DNA of 48,648 nt, taken from positions 1 through 48,648 of IMG/VR virus record IMGVR_UViG_3300042691_026214. One strand, written 5' to 3'. Source of the DNA: a virus. A program made the position numbers and the translations under genes. This document shows, piece after piece, positions 8,716 to 17,954 of the stretch. A model generated the notes under the pieces. The model made no database searches, was not told the DNA's origin, and saw only the letters and a list, made by a program, of their open reading frames with translations. Positions within the stretch are counted from its first letter, which is position 1, and each line of letters begins with the position of its first letter.

Positions 8716-10214
8716 TGATCACCATAGGGAAGGCGGTGGGATGCTGGCCCGTCGTCGAACCGGCCCTCGCGGGCGAGGTTGCCGAAGCGGGTGAAGTCCT
8801 CGCTGAAGGCCATGCGAACGGTGCCGATGGGCCCGTGCCGCTGCTTGCCGATGATGACCTCGGCGAGCCCTTGAACCTTGGACATTTCCTCGGTCCAGTT
8901 CTGATGCTCGACGGTGCCAGCGCGCGGCTCGGTGCGGCCCAGGTAGTAGGCTTCGCGGTAGACGAACATGACGGCGTCGGCGTCCTGCTCGATGGACCCG
9001 GACTCGCGAAGGTCGGCCAGCTGGGGCCGCTTGTCGTCGCGGTTCTCGACCTGGCGGGACAGTTGCGAGAGGGCGATGACCGGGACGTTCAGATCCTTGG
9101 CCAACGCCTTGAGGCCTCCGGTGATGGCGCCGATTTCCTCGGTGCGGTTGCCGCCGCGGCTGCGCTCGGTGGTGATCAGCTGCAGGTAGTCGATGACGAT
9201 CAGGTCGAGGCCGTGCTTGCGCTTGAGGCGGCGGGCCCGGGCGGTCAGCTTGGCCAGCGACAGCCCGCCGGTCGCGTCGATGTGCAGGGGCACGCTGCGG
9301 ACCTCGTCCAGCGCGTCGCGGAAGCGGCCGAACTCGGAGGCGTCGATCTGGCCCTTGCGGATCCTGTCGCCGCTGATGCCGCTGATGTCGCAGCCGATGC
9401 GGGTGGCCAGTTGGGCCTCGTCCATTTCCAGCGAGAAGAACCCGACCACGCCGCCGTCGGCAGCCGTGCGCACGCCGTCGACGTCGGGGCCGCGCACGTA
9501 GCGCCGGGCGATGTTGAAGGCGATGTTCGTGGCCAGTGACGTCTTCCCCATCGAGGGGCGCCCGGCAAGAATGATCAGATCGGACGGATGCAGGCCGCCC
9601 AGCTTGGCGTCCAGATCGATGAAGCCGGTGGACAGGCCGCCGATGCCGCCGTCCCGCGCATAGGCCTTGGCGGCGGTGTCGAGCGCGGTGTCGATGGCGT
9701 CCGTGAAGGGCTTGAACCCGCCCTGGTCGGCCTTGTGCTCGGCAATGGCGAACAGGTTGCGCTCGGCGGTTTCGAGGATGGCTGCGGCCTCGACCTCGGC
9801 ATTCCGGGCCGCGACACCCATCTCCTCGGAGTAGGCGATCATTTCGCGCCGCAGGGCCCGGTCAATGATGACCTTGGCGTGGTCGCGCATGTTGGCTGAC
9901 GGTGGCGCGCGCTCAAACAGTTCGGCCAGGTAGACGATGCCGCCAAGCTCGTTGAACGCTACGTCGTTCTGGCCCAGCTTGGCAGCGACCGTGACCGGGT
10001 CAGCCTGCGTTCCGGCGGCGACCATAGACAGGATCGCGGCCCATACGCGCTGGTGCGCCGGCTCGTAGAAATGCTCCGGCAGCAGGCCGTCGGCGCGGTC
10101 GACGTTGTCGTTGATGTATAGCGCCATGCCCAGCACGCCCATTTCGGCGTCCAGGTCGCACGGCAGCTGCTTGGCGGCGTAGCCGGGGGAGCGAAAGTCG
10201 AGGGCTTGGGTCAT
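8712..10214 (-). CDS. dnaB: Replicative DNA helicase, DnaB family
   Basis: A 500-residue helicase of normal family length. The N-terminal domain (about residues 15-120) has PCDLDAEMGVLGM and the HQRVW motif. The RecA-like C-terminal domain has Walker A AGRPSMGKTS at 217-226, GFFSLEMDEAQLATR (H1a region), LDLIVIDYLQL (Walker B) and LSQLSRQVE with the DLRESGSIEQDAD signature. It unwinds the phage replication fork as a hexamer. No separate loader is obvious; the DUF1376 protein downstream may serve. The start ATG 10214 overlaps the methyltransferase stop as ATGA. Confidence 0.95.
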   Translation of the reverse strand: MTQALDFRSPGYAAKQLPCDLDAEMGVLGMALYINDNVDRADGLLPEHFYEPAHQRVWAAILSMVAAGTQADPVTVAAKLGQNDVAFNELGGIVYLAELFERAPPSANMRDHAKVIIDRALRREMIAYSEEMGVAARNAEVEAAAILETAERNLFAIAEHKADQGGFKPFTDAIDTALDTAAKAYARDGGIGGLSTGFIDLDAKLGGLHPSDLIILAGRPSMGKTSLATNIAFNIARRYVRGPDVDGVRTAADGGVVGFFSLEMDEAQLATRIGCDISGISGDRIRKGQIDASEFGRFRDALDEVRSVPLHIDATGGLSLAKLTARARRLKRKHGLDLIVIDYLQLITTERSRGGNRTEEIGAITGGLKALAKDLNVPVIALSQLSRQVENRDDKRPQLADLRESGSIEQDADAVMFVYREAYYLGRTEPRAGTVEHQNWTEEMSKVQGLAEVIIGKQRHGPIGTVRMAFSEDFTRFGNLAREGRFDDGPASHRLPYGDQ

Positions 10215-11650
10215 CGCGTCACCATTTCAATCCCGTCGGCCCGATGCGCCTTCGTCCGCGAAGGCGCCGTAAATCCGGCGACCGCGTCTGGCTGGCTGGC
10301 TGGCTGGCTGGCTGGCTGGCTGGCTGGCTGCGAGGTGTTTGTGTCGGCAAACAGCGGCAAGTCCCGCCCCGCAGCGGCGTCCGGGCTCACGTCTCGCGCC
10401 ATCTCTTGAGCGGTCATCCGCCCCTCGCCCTTGGCCCAGGCGACGCGACGTTCGATGTCAGCGACGTACTGCGCCTCGCGCTCGATCAGAATGAAGTCAA
10501 AGCCCTCGGCAATGCAGGCCACGCCGGTTGATCCAGATCCCGCGAACGGGTCAAGGACCACACCGCCCGGCGGCGTGATCAACCGGACAAGGTAGCGCAT
10601 CAGGTCAACCGGCTTCACAGTCGGATGCTTCGACCCGAGTCGATCCTCGGCGTCGGCCTTGGCGCTGTAGAAAAAGCGAGCGGCGGAGCCGGAGTCGTTG
10701 TGCCCGACTGCCGACGTGCCCAGCCCCTCGCCAAACGCGTTGACCGAAGGCTTGCCGGGCTTGCCGGGCTTGCCTCCACCTGCCTCAGACGGAAAGCCGC
10801 TAACAACCTCCTCGCTGCCGTCATGGATGACGTTGGCGGGCCAACGGCCGAGCCCCTCAACAGGGACGCCCCTTGCACCATTTAGGCCGTCACCCAGGAT
10901 GCCCTTCGACGGGCCAGCGGCCGCGCCGGCGGGACCGCCGGCGCGGCCCACTCGACACCGGTCGATGTTGAGCGCCCCGGTCCCGTGCGTCAGCACATTC
11001 GCCGCGACGGTTCCGGCCAGCGGTTTGCGGGCGAGCACCCACGGCTCGCAGGCGGGCTTGAGGGCGGTGCCCCAACCTGAGAACGCCTTGGCGGCCTCTG
11101 TGGCGGCCTCTGTGGCGGCCGGGGTGAAGGTCCGGCCGTTGCCCTTTTCCCAGCCTTCGCGAGCTTGGTCAGCGCCGGGGATCATTCGCTTGACCGGCTT
11201 GCCCTCGGCGATCACGCGGCGCTCGGCGCCCAGCGTCTTGTCAATCCCCTTGCTGACGTCGTGCGACTTAGGAAAGCCTGACCCGTACAGCCAGGAAACC
11301 ATGTCCCTGATCTCGAAGCCCGCGTCCTCGATGGCGCAGGCGAGCCGATGATAGGTCCGAGTCCCGCTGGCCGCGATCACATGGCCGCCGGGCTTCAGGA
11401 CCCGCAGCACCTCGGCCCAGAACGCCGGATCAAAGGCCGTCTCGCCCGTGTCCCACTTCTGGCCCATGAAGCCAGCCGACGCCCGCGCGTAGAAGCCGCT
11501 CGCGCCGTTGGACTGCGCCGGCGCCGCACCGTCCGCGCCAAACCGCTTGCCGATGCTGACCAGCGCATACGGAGGATCGGTCACGACGGAGTCGATGCTG
11601 TTGTCGGCCAGGGCCTTGAGCACTTCGCGGGAGTCACCGTTATGAATCAC
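10211..11650 (-). CDS. DNA methyltransferase, beta class (N6-adenine or N4-cytosine)
   Basis: The start is taken as GTG 11650, forming GTGA with the stop of the upstream gene; the open frame continues upstream only inside that gene. The 479-residue protein has the catalytic DPPY at about residues 25-28 and the S-adenosylmethionine-binding DPFAGSGST at about 367-375, the beta-class order also seen in CcrM. Between them is a long insert with short repeats (GKPGKPGKP, ATEAATEAA), probably including the target-recognition region. The tail carries SQPAS repeats encoded by a CTGG tandem repeat. Specificity cannot be read from sequence, and the insert is not CcrM-like. Likely roles are protection from host restriction or epigenetic control. 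Confidence 0.9.
   Translation of the reverse strand: MIHNGDSREVLKALADNSIDSVVTDPPYALVSIGKRFGADGAAPAQSNGASGFYARASAGFMGQKWDTGETAFDPAFWAEVLRVLKPGGHVIAASGTRTYHRLACAIEDAGFEIRDMVSWLYGSGFPKSHDVSKGIDKTLGAERRVIAEGKPVKRMIPGADQAREGWEKGNGRTFTPAATEAATEAAKAFSGWGTALKPACEPWVLARKPLAGTVAANVLTHGTGALNIDRCRVGRAGGPAGAAAGPSKGILGDGLNGARGVPVEGLGRWPANVIHDGSEEVVSGFPSEAGGGKPGKPGKPSVNAFGEGLGTSAVGHNDSGSAARFFYSAKADAEDRLGSKHPTVKPVDLMRYLVRLITPPGGVVLDPFAGSGSTGVACIAEGFDFILIEREAQYVADIERRVAWAKGEGRMTAQEMARDVSPDAAAGRDLPLFADTNTSQPASQPASQPASQPDAVAGFTAPSRTKAHRADGIEMVTR
10288..10330. repeat. CTGG tetranucleotide tandem repeat, about 10.75 units, in methyltransferase 3' end
   Basis: An uninterrupted run of CTGG from 10288 to 10330 lies inside the beta-class methyltransferase gene. 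On the coding strand it makes QPAS repeats at about residues 441-454, after the catalytic domains. Because the unit is not a multiple of three, gain or loss of one unit would shift the frame and change the last 25 or so residues, as well as the coupling to dnaB. Confidence 0.9.
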
Positions 11651-17446: not shown

Positions 17447-17712
17447 GCCGCACCCTGTTCCGCACAGACAAGACCGAGACCCACTACGCCGTCGTCATCG
17501 TCCGCACGGGCGTCGCGGTTTTCACGGCCAACACGCTTGACCTGGCCAAGGCGCGTCTACGCTCCGTCGCCCGCGACTTCGGCGAGCTGGAGGTCCGCGA
17601 GGTCGTCACCACGACGGCCAGCCGCCGGGCATACCGTCCCACGCCGAAGCCCGCGCCCGCCGCGCCCGCCTGCCGGGAGGATCGCGATCTGGCGATCCCG
17701 GTGCACGCTTGA
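17443..17712 (+). CDS. Hypothetical protein
   Basis: An 89-residue protein with a folded-looking N-terminal part (THYAVVIVRTGVAVFTANTLDLAKARLRSVARDFGELEVREV) and a Pro-rich basic linker before the C-terminus. No family recognised. It overlaps the SciP-like gene's TTG start by 4 bases (TTGA), so the two are co-translated. Confidence 0.65.
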   Translation: MSRTLFRTDKTETHYAVVIVRTGVAVFTANTLDLAKARLRSVARDFGELEVREVVTTTASRRAYRPTPKPAPAAPACREDRDLAIPVHA

Positions 17713-17954
17713 CCACCGCCACCCTTCTCGGCCCCCGGGCCCGGCTCGCCGTCGGCGTCAGCCCAATCACCCACTGGAATCCGCATCGCAAGCTGAAGGT
17801 GCTGAAGGCACTCGACGCGGCCGACGCCGACGAGCGCGCCGCCCTCATGACCGAACACGGGCTGACCGATGACGAGGTCACGCACTGGCGCACGGCTTTC
17901 GCGCGGGCCGGGATCGCGGGGCTCTACACGCGGCGGCAGGAGAACAGGCGGTGA
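17709..17954 (+). CDS. SciP-like (DUF1153-type) regulator, possible CtrA antagonist
   Basis: An 81-residue protein starting at TTG 17709. From about residue 20 it follows the SciP pattern as I remember it: an HRKLKVLKAL helix (like RRKAEVVAAV), HGLTDDEVTHW (like YTLTVEEFLSW) and AGIAGLYTRRQENRR (like HGLAGLRTTRIQQYR). SciP is a small HTH protein of alphaproteobacteria that binds CtrA and blocks its recruitment of RNA polymerase in Caulobacter. A phage copy could shift host cell-cycle transcription or regulate phage promoters. It overlaps its neighbours on both sides (TTGA, GTGA). The length is close to that of host SciP. Confidence 0.7.
   Translation: MTTATLLGPRARLAVGVSPITHWNPHRKLKVLKALDAADADERAALMTEHGLTDDEVTHWRTAFARAGIAGLYTRRQENRR

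Follow-up and report, generated by a model that had tools for sequence, protein, structure and literature searches.

Textbooks present GcrA, CtrA and SciP as regulators of the cell cycle, which together with CcrM form the GcrA/SciP/CtrA/CcrM circuit of Caulobacter crescentus. Host GcrA has been described as binding sigma domain 2 through its C-terminal domain and methylated DNA through its helix-turn-helix (HTH) (PMC7403470). In phages, GcrA has been reported for phiCbK-like phages (PMC3556154) and Agrobacterium phage Atu_ph08 (PMC6630229), and it appears as a table entry for phiLM21-like prophages (PMC12429752). We analysed the whole IMG/VR virus record IMGVR_UViG_3300042691_026214, a stretch of 48,648 bases (hereafter the window), which encodes a GcrA-type protein (P0001), a predicted OmpR/PhoB-type winged helix (P0002), a relative of SciP (P0003) and a DNA methyltransferase (P0004), and asked whether such genes are stray phage copies or belong to a related phage circuit. 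Both the GcrA-winged-helix neighbourhood and the co-occurrence of GcrA with SciP were found to recur in other phages. GcrA in phages was already known; these two pairings are new here, and a literature search, with most subscription papers outside its reach, found neither a phage SciP nor a GcrA-winged-helix pair described in the text that it covered.

Like the C. crescentus circuit, the window has members of the GcrA and SciP families and a DNA-binding domain of the OmpR family. It differs in having no receiver domain, a tandem HTH in P0001 and no CcrM equivalent, and in that all four proteins score below the strict NCBIfam cut-offs. A preliminary description of this DNA had likened the four proteins to GcrA, CtrA, SciP and, with least certainty, CcrM; the families were right, and orthology to the host proteins would go beyond family-level evidence. 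The phiCbK protein gp222 (Gill et al. 2012, PMC3556154) resembles P0001 as a phage member of the GcrA family with a sigma-interacting C-terminus and a Caulobacter host. Unlike the window, the phiCbK phages exceed 200 kb, no DUF1153 match was found in the phiCbK record, no winged helix was found in the 6.4 kb around its GcrA gene, and that GcrA has one HTH (read by eye). A second comparison is the GafY/GafZ system, GafY being, to our knowledge, not a GcrA. GafY, a phage-type activator of the Caulobacter gene transfer agent genes, contacts RpoD directly, at sigma domains 3-4 (PMC11150451), and thus offers a precedent for a phage-type activator docking on sigma70.

A close arrangement is that of phage Yong-M4-211, which matches the window in its terminase DNA with 77.9% identity over 398 bases. 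There, as in the window, the GcrA gene (UPT53137.1) overlaps a winged-helix gene (UPT53136.1, its product 44% identical to P0002) between RusA and DnaB; the gene order is swapped, however, the GcrA is of the usual type, the annotated host is cyanobacterial and no SciP match was found. A viral scan with these two winged helices returned seven loci, one identical to the window there (L003) and six falling into four groups, and in all four (L182, L183-185, L186 and L187) a GcrA-type gene lies one or two genes from the winged helix. Among 80 control loci selected by their terminase, a GcrA-type match was present in four (two being the same gene, one weak and one the C-terminal part only) and a winged helix in one (L068), beside the weak GcrA-like HTH. 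The contrast in GcrA presence (4/4 groups against 4/80 loci) gave a Fisher p of 3.6e-5, in counts that lean towards the pair arrangement, since both phages behind the query alignment have the pair themselves. In Caulobacter phage RW, the winged helix precedes a GcrA-type HTH that lacks the sigma part; the same matches are paired in GB2A, RLK and KcrB, and the group L206-213 is built likewise. Whole records were also compared: a winged helix was found in two of 41 terminase-selected records (G040 and G007), each of which also matched GcrA at E ≤0.001, so that at this threshold the winged helix accompanied 2/5 records with GcrA and 0/36 without (p 0.012). The winged helix of G040 is itself a row of the profile used in this test, but was first found without that profile; that of G007 is the fourth gene after GcrA by our own gene calls. 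The GcrA-winged-helix neighbourhood thus recurs in diverged phages. Between the two genes in L186, a small gene at 9738-9992 is similar to the DNA-binding domain of DnaA, at a PF08299 score of 22.8 bits that falls short of the cut-off of 31.5.

The pairing of GcrA with SciP was found in a second scan. With three SciP copies as queries, eight viral records were recovered, all over the DUF1153 cut-off. The window excluded, GcrA was present in 6/6 of these records of at least 58 kb and in neither of two short fragments (9.4 and 11.2 kb), against 3/9 terminase-selected records of at least 58 kb (p 0.017); four of the six long records were already known via GcrA and three supplied the query, while the new ones, G441 and G442, both have GcrA. 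SciP was found in 0/47 terminase-selected records and in 4/21 GcrA-selected records (p 0.007), the 21 having been drawn from 28 loci and several being near-copies. The GcrA and SciP genes are divergent and 5.1 to 9.6 kb apart in the window and in five long records; G441 shows this layout, at 11.6 kb, only if the ends of the record join. All three families are present in the window and in two of the six long records (G002 and G445), in both of which the winged helix lies far from GcrA. GcrA and SciP recur together in phages, and common descent accounts for part of this co-occurrence. A separate feature of G442 is a row of three GcrA matches (19369-20753). Since two pairings recur in other phages, random cargo is an unlikely account of the GcrA, winged-helix and SciP genes; that related viruses keep pairs of them together suggests instead a gene-control kit that these viruses share.

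The GcrA-like protein proposed for the window was borne out by profile search. P0001 passed the PF07750 cut-off of 26.9 bits (score in the table; E 1.3e-15), with residues 59-212 covering profile positions 5-153 of 155, and an HTH_23 match at residues 15-46 marks an extra N-terminal HTH. Comparison with the PDB returned full-length C. crescentus GcrA (7ye1, E 7.4e-9) and a construct of it (5yix, E 0.0025). The strict NCBIfam GcrA equivalog NF050816 was not reached (50.3 bits against a cut-off of 280), and a fold search of the model against the PDB gave nothing at E 0.001 or better. In the predicted structure, two three-helix units have a high predicted local distance difference test score (pLDDT), the linker is mostly unstructured and the C-terminal part is of low confidence. 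The sigma70-interacting motif lies at about residues 150-212, where P0001 keeps the motif C.WPIG...C...YC..H; diverse phage GcrAs keep it with variations, their DNA-binding part being variable. From these kept residues, P0001 would be expected to bind sigma70 domain 2. Its HTH was compared at the columns conserved to 90% or more in 12 aligned sequences: E60 and I78 are kept, a W is replaced by R57 and a K by L92, so that P0001 departs from the near-invariant residues of host-type GcrA HTHs. In addition, A87 stands where N is usual, at a column that also varies in other aligned GcrA sequences.

Phage GcrAs appear to tend towards keeping the sigma-binding part and varying the DNA-binding part. 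That of Bajun has two GcrA HTHs (read by eye), and that of L022, with 93 residues, has little beyond the C-terminal part; an HTH without the GcrA C-terminal part, as in phage RW and L206-213, is the reverse of this tendency. In record G002, a 492-residue protein (L190:10039-11976) has only the C-terminus of GcrA and no Pfam match in its N-terminal part, and its gene adjoins a canonical GcrA gene. A linker motif resembling AGNGAxx was seen in 7/28 phage GcrAs and 0/30 Caulobacteraceae GcrAs; it begins at residue 127 of P0001, where the model has two short strands. The C-terminal part of P0001 matched at least 211 of 390 Caulobacteraceae genomes, the best among the matches listed reaching 33.1 bits and 50% identity; a near copy in this family was considered and set aside, the best listed matches being ordinary GcrA-sized frames. 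We built a GcrA tree from 24 class-level loci (two second copies and several partial ones included) and four Caulobacteraceae, an earlier tree having had Caulobacteraceae hosts alone. Of the class-level loci, 21/24 formed one clade. The phage copies L189, L191 and L202 lay near Caulobacteraceae GcrAs, and the remaining phage copies elsewhere, on long and often poorly supported branches, alongside host loci L281, L284 and L285. In two phages annotated as Synechococcus phages, L174 / OM868079.1 and PP438432.1, the GcrA is of the alphaproteobacterial type and the terminase closely resembles that of the window; they may in fact infect an alphaproteobacterium that was present in a mixed culture.

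P0002 by itself matched Trans_reg_C (PF00486) at 18.2 bits (E 0.0026), under the cut-off of 26.2. Two viral relatives (45% and 39% identical to it) passed this cut-off with 28.6 and 41.3 bits, and a family profile of P0002 and seven relatives matched PDB structures of response-regulator domains of the OmpR/PhoB type (best E 4e-9). On the strength of these relatives and this profile, P0002 is predicted to be an OmpR/PhoB-type winged helix without a receiver; no match to a receiver domain with its phospho-acceptor Asp was found in the 130 residues. The model has a pLDDT of 82-94 over residues 31-120, but 58 for the block 71-80. Of the former label, a CtrA-type winged helix lacking the receiver, the absence of the receiver and the OmpR-type class held, while "CtrA-type" proved too specific: the NCBIfam CtrA model gave 15.1 bits against a cut-off of 350, the QseB model 14.2 bits. 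CtrA was likewise not singled out among the structural and profile matches listed for P0002, which carries no weight as evidence.

Fold comparisons of P0002 provided a lead only. Foldseek returned nothing at E 0.001 or better, with MarR- and PhoB-type winged helices at the top ranks. In the VIA fold comparison, the activation domain of T4 MotA came first (Z 10.7, root-mean-square deviation 2.6, 88 aligned), and the matched entries 1bja and 6k4y belong to the T4 MotA/AsiA sigma-appropriation system. In T4, the winged helix MotA is used with a sigma-binding partner, AsiA, in sigma appropriation. Other winged helices, and even a ribosomal protein, followed at Z 9-9.8, so the rank of MotA says little; there is no sequence link between the two proteins, and a MotA-like role for P0002 is putative.

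The SciP-like gene was likewise confirmed: P0003 passed the DUF1153 cut-off (PF06627, 23.5 bits; E 1.1e-6), and the strict NCBIfam model NF051866 was not reached (25.7 bits against 100). P0003 alone reached the structure 2jrt at no better than E 0.11; once five viral SciP copies were combined in a profile, the DUF1153-type structures 2jrt (E 6.1e-15) and 2oa4 (E 5.8e-14) were matched. P0003 and the four other viral copies have 11 identical columns (W, P, R, K, V, A, E, W, G, G, L). Significant matches were thus obtained to GcrA, SciP and OmpR-type domains, the last through the relatives and family profile of P0002. A viral scan with P0003 as sole query found nothing, and tblastn of P0001, P0002 and P0003 against 50,697 phage records gave no match; the relatives named here were reached through intermediates. 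In 109 Caulobacteraceae genomes, 96 SciP copies scored 127-144 bits and eight scored 30-65 bits. Seven of these eight have only apparent non-phage genes within about 3.5 kb (by eye), one of the seven (G070:C3) being near a transposase, and the eighth is that of the Caulobacter prophage described below; divergent SciP copies are therefore not only viral. The non-viral-looking contigs with a divergent DUF1153 are G122:C38, G086:C20, G051:C27, G082:C128, G098:C130, G107:C213 and G070:C3, and in G082 and G107 only the divergent copy was seen.

We propose, with moderate confidence, that a temperate phage with a Caulobacter-like host runs its own transcription with borrowed cell-cycle regulator domains, as a sigma70-docking switch with a SciP brake. 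The GcrA-type protein, encoded with the leftward replication genes, would use its conserved C-terminal domain to hold host sigma70, and its two HTHs would recognise phage promoters, to which RNA polymerase would be brought. The winged helix from the overlapping gene may contribute to selecting these promoters or to making them stronger. The SciP-type protein, encoded with the rightward genes, would damp transcription from OmpR-type activators, be it host CtrA, the phage winged helix or both, and the methyltransferase would be an optional modification gene. The families, their domain layout and the recurring neighbourhoods are established by the present analysis; sigma70 binding, promoter targets, partnership and any timing are inferred, and a single phage circuit of these regulators is plausible.

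Several observations weigh against this proposal. When GcrA matches were required to exceed the Pfam cut-off, below which that of G040 falls, the whole-record test became 1/4 against 1/37 (p 0.19). Each pairing has an exception: a winged helix occurs without GcrA in Brevundimonas phage Delta, as SciP does in phage XM05. Of seven phages with GcrA and SciP, a winged helix was found in three (the window, G002 and G445), and beside GcrA only in the window. The P0001 model has low confidence over the part that would contact sigma. Moreover, the profiles that found the relatives were built from members of those very lineages, and there are several near-copies among the loci; the counts therefore do not represent independent events.

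A bolder version of the proposal, by analogy with T4 AsiA/MotA, is speculative and doubtful. It would make GcrA, a coiled-coil winged helix and SciP one phage circuit for sigma70 appropriation, in which GcrA would hold sigma domain 2, the winged helix would select promoters and may touch sigma, and SciP would be the brake; the DNA-binding half of GcrA would be freely exchanged and its sigma half retained, and movement of these modules between phages and hosts may have shaped the host circuit itself.

The main competing explanation, which we regard as possible though unlikely, is that the regulators are aimed at the host: the phage GcrA would turn on S-phase genes and the phage SciP silence CtrA-activated genes, producing a state favourable to replication or staging lysis and lysogeny by the cell cycle. 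A host take-over of this kind has been proposed for the phiCbK GcrA (PMC3556154), host CtrA controls some alphaproteobacterial phages (PMC9437464), and phage SciPs keep core residues of a protein that in Caulobacter represses CtrA-activated promoters (PMC4287350). The loss of the near-invariant W and K from the P0001 HTH makes host-type GANTC promoters a less likely target, and in the window no full CtrA site (TTAA-N7-TTAA) occurs with 0 or 1 mismatch; nine occur with 2, without enrichment. For SciP, which would be expected to bind GCGNC sites, the full site motif was not enriched in the window either (10 against 14.05 expected). Avoidance of GANTC was rejected as a sign of GcrA control: the ratio of observed to first-order expected sites, 0.20 in the window, is about that of host DNA (0.24 in 30 joined host gcrA loci), with 0.32 in one Caulobacter metagenome-assembled genome (MAG) contig that is part prophage and 0.09-0.36 in other viral stretches. 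Taken together, the residue losses, the lack of CtrA and SciP site enrichment and the host-like GANTC scarcity point to phage promoters more than to host cell-cycle promoters, so that an aim at the host cell cycle appears less likely than our proposal of phage-directed transcription. Canonical phage GcrAs, such as those of G002, L189 and L202, could act on host-type promoters.

Alternatively, the proteins may be unlinked local regulators, ordinary small DNA-binding proteins of the phage each serving its own operon, with a cell-cycle link through shared domain ancestry only. Phages commonly encode HTH and winged-helix proteins, SciP and GcrA occupy different arms, just 1/7 phages with GcrA and SciP has the winged helix adjoining GcrA, and divergent DUF1153 genes are also chromosomal, as the seven low-scoring copies among non-phage genes illustrate. 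The recurrent GcrA-winged-helix neighbourhood and the GcrA-SciP co-occurrence in diverged phages argue against this explanation, and we consider it quite unlikely.

The methyltransferase was assessed separately. P0004 matches PF01555, with DPPY near the N-terminus and DPFAGSG near the C-terminus, which is the motif order of the beta class. In the close relative L104, DNA matches both flanks (88.6% over 502 bases and 86.2% over 1,500), and the roughly 1.44 kb between them, which is the methyltransferase gene, is absent; its GcrA (96% over its 72 C-terminal residues) and DnaB (88%) are kept. Methyltransferases of several kinds were found near GcrA in 9/34 groups, and, comparing loci with DnaB, in 8/15 GcrA groups against 4/11 loci without GcrA (p 0.32), or 3/10 when the control L012, whose record G007 has a GcrA outside that locus, is left out (p 0.23); these samples are small and the profiles narrow, a 976-residue helicase-methyltransferase-like frame of G002 having been missed. 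The NCBIfam CcrM model gave 61.4 bits against a cut-off of 830, its best stretch being profile positions 185-254 of 350. The P0004 methyltransferase (METHYLTRANSFERASE) does not look core-like and looks instead like a swappable accessory. The preliminary description had itself noted a beta-class methyltransferase that does not look CcrM-specific, and a place for it as the CcrM counterpart in a circuit was not supported. A four-part copy of the Caulobacter circuit, although the methyltransferase gene follows shortly after GcrA and such genes occur near GcrA elsewhere, is very improbable given the CcrM score, the L104 arrangement and the lack of a clear excess beside GcrA. Near the C-terminus of P0004, SQPA repeats were noted (10289-10333).

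The window is one whole record, classed linear and without end repeats, and may be incomplete as a genome. Pfam matches were obtained to integrase, RecT, RusA, DnaB and terminase; with these and an S24-type repressor encoded, the window is a temperate tailed phage. The reading frames of all four focal genes are open, that of the methyltransferase from a GTG at 11653, and base 12626 is common to the P0002 stop codon and the P0001 start codon. On a Caulobacter MAG contig, an apparent prophage carries a SciP-like gene, 83% identical to P0003 and likewise placed before exonuclease- and RecT-type genes, which points to a Caulobacter-like bacterium as the probable host. This contig starts 466 bases before the SciP-like gene, and the GcrA arm therefore lies outside it. 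In the HNH protein after the SciP relative, the C-terminal HTH (18356-18451) weakly matches the GcrA HTH (15.9-16 bits).

Table. Genes of the regulatory region and its surroundings in the window.
Feature	Position	Strand	Remarks
DnaB-type replicative helicase	8712-10214	-	PF03796 322 bits; downstream of methyltransferase, same strand
DNA methyltransferase P0004	10211-11653	-	PF01555 96.1 bits; phrog_67 240 bits; accessory
GcrA-type protein P0001, 232 aa	11928-12626	-	PF07750 58.5 bits; two tandem HTHs, disordered linker, C-terminal sigma70-interacting motif
Predicted OmpR/PhoB-type winged helix P0002, 130 aa, no receiver	12626-13018	-	N-terminal helix (possible coiled coil)
RusA-type resolvase	13356-13715	-	PF05866 40.4 bits; upstream, same strand
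CII-like protein	13943-14341	-	phrog_101 E 1e-5
Small protein in Cro position	14763-15011	-	47% identity over 53 aa to same-place relative in G002; no Pfam match
CI/S24-type repressor, between the two arms	15069-15731	+	PF00717 43.8 bits; phrog_4 E 1.7e-26
SciP/DUF1153 relative P0003, 81 aa	17709-17954	+	PF06627 29.1 bits; just before HNH, DUF3799 (PDDEXK-like) and RecT genes
Recombination genes DUF3799 (PDDEXK-like) and RecT	18499-20471	+	Pfam matches; downstream of SciP relative
Tyrosine integrase	25655-26755	+	PF00589 50.3 bits; marks temperate phage

A compact temperate phage with a recurring GcrA-winged-helix pair and a SciP partner makes the question of a phage circuit testable with few genes in Caulobacter. 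Beyond this phage, the GcrAs described here form a natural series in which the sigma-binding end stays similar and the DNA-binding end differs, which would be useful for learning how GcrA chooses its promoters.

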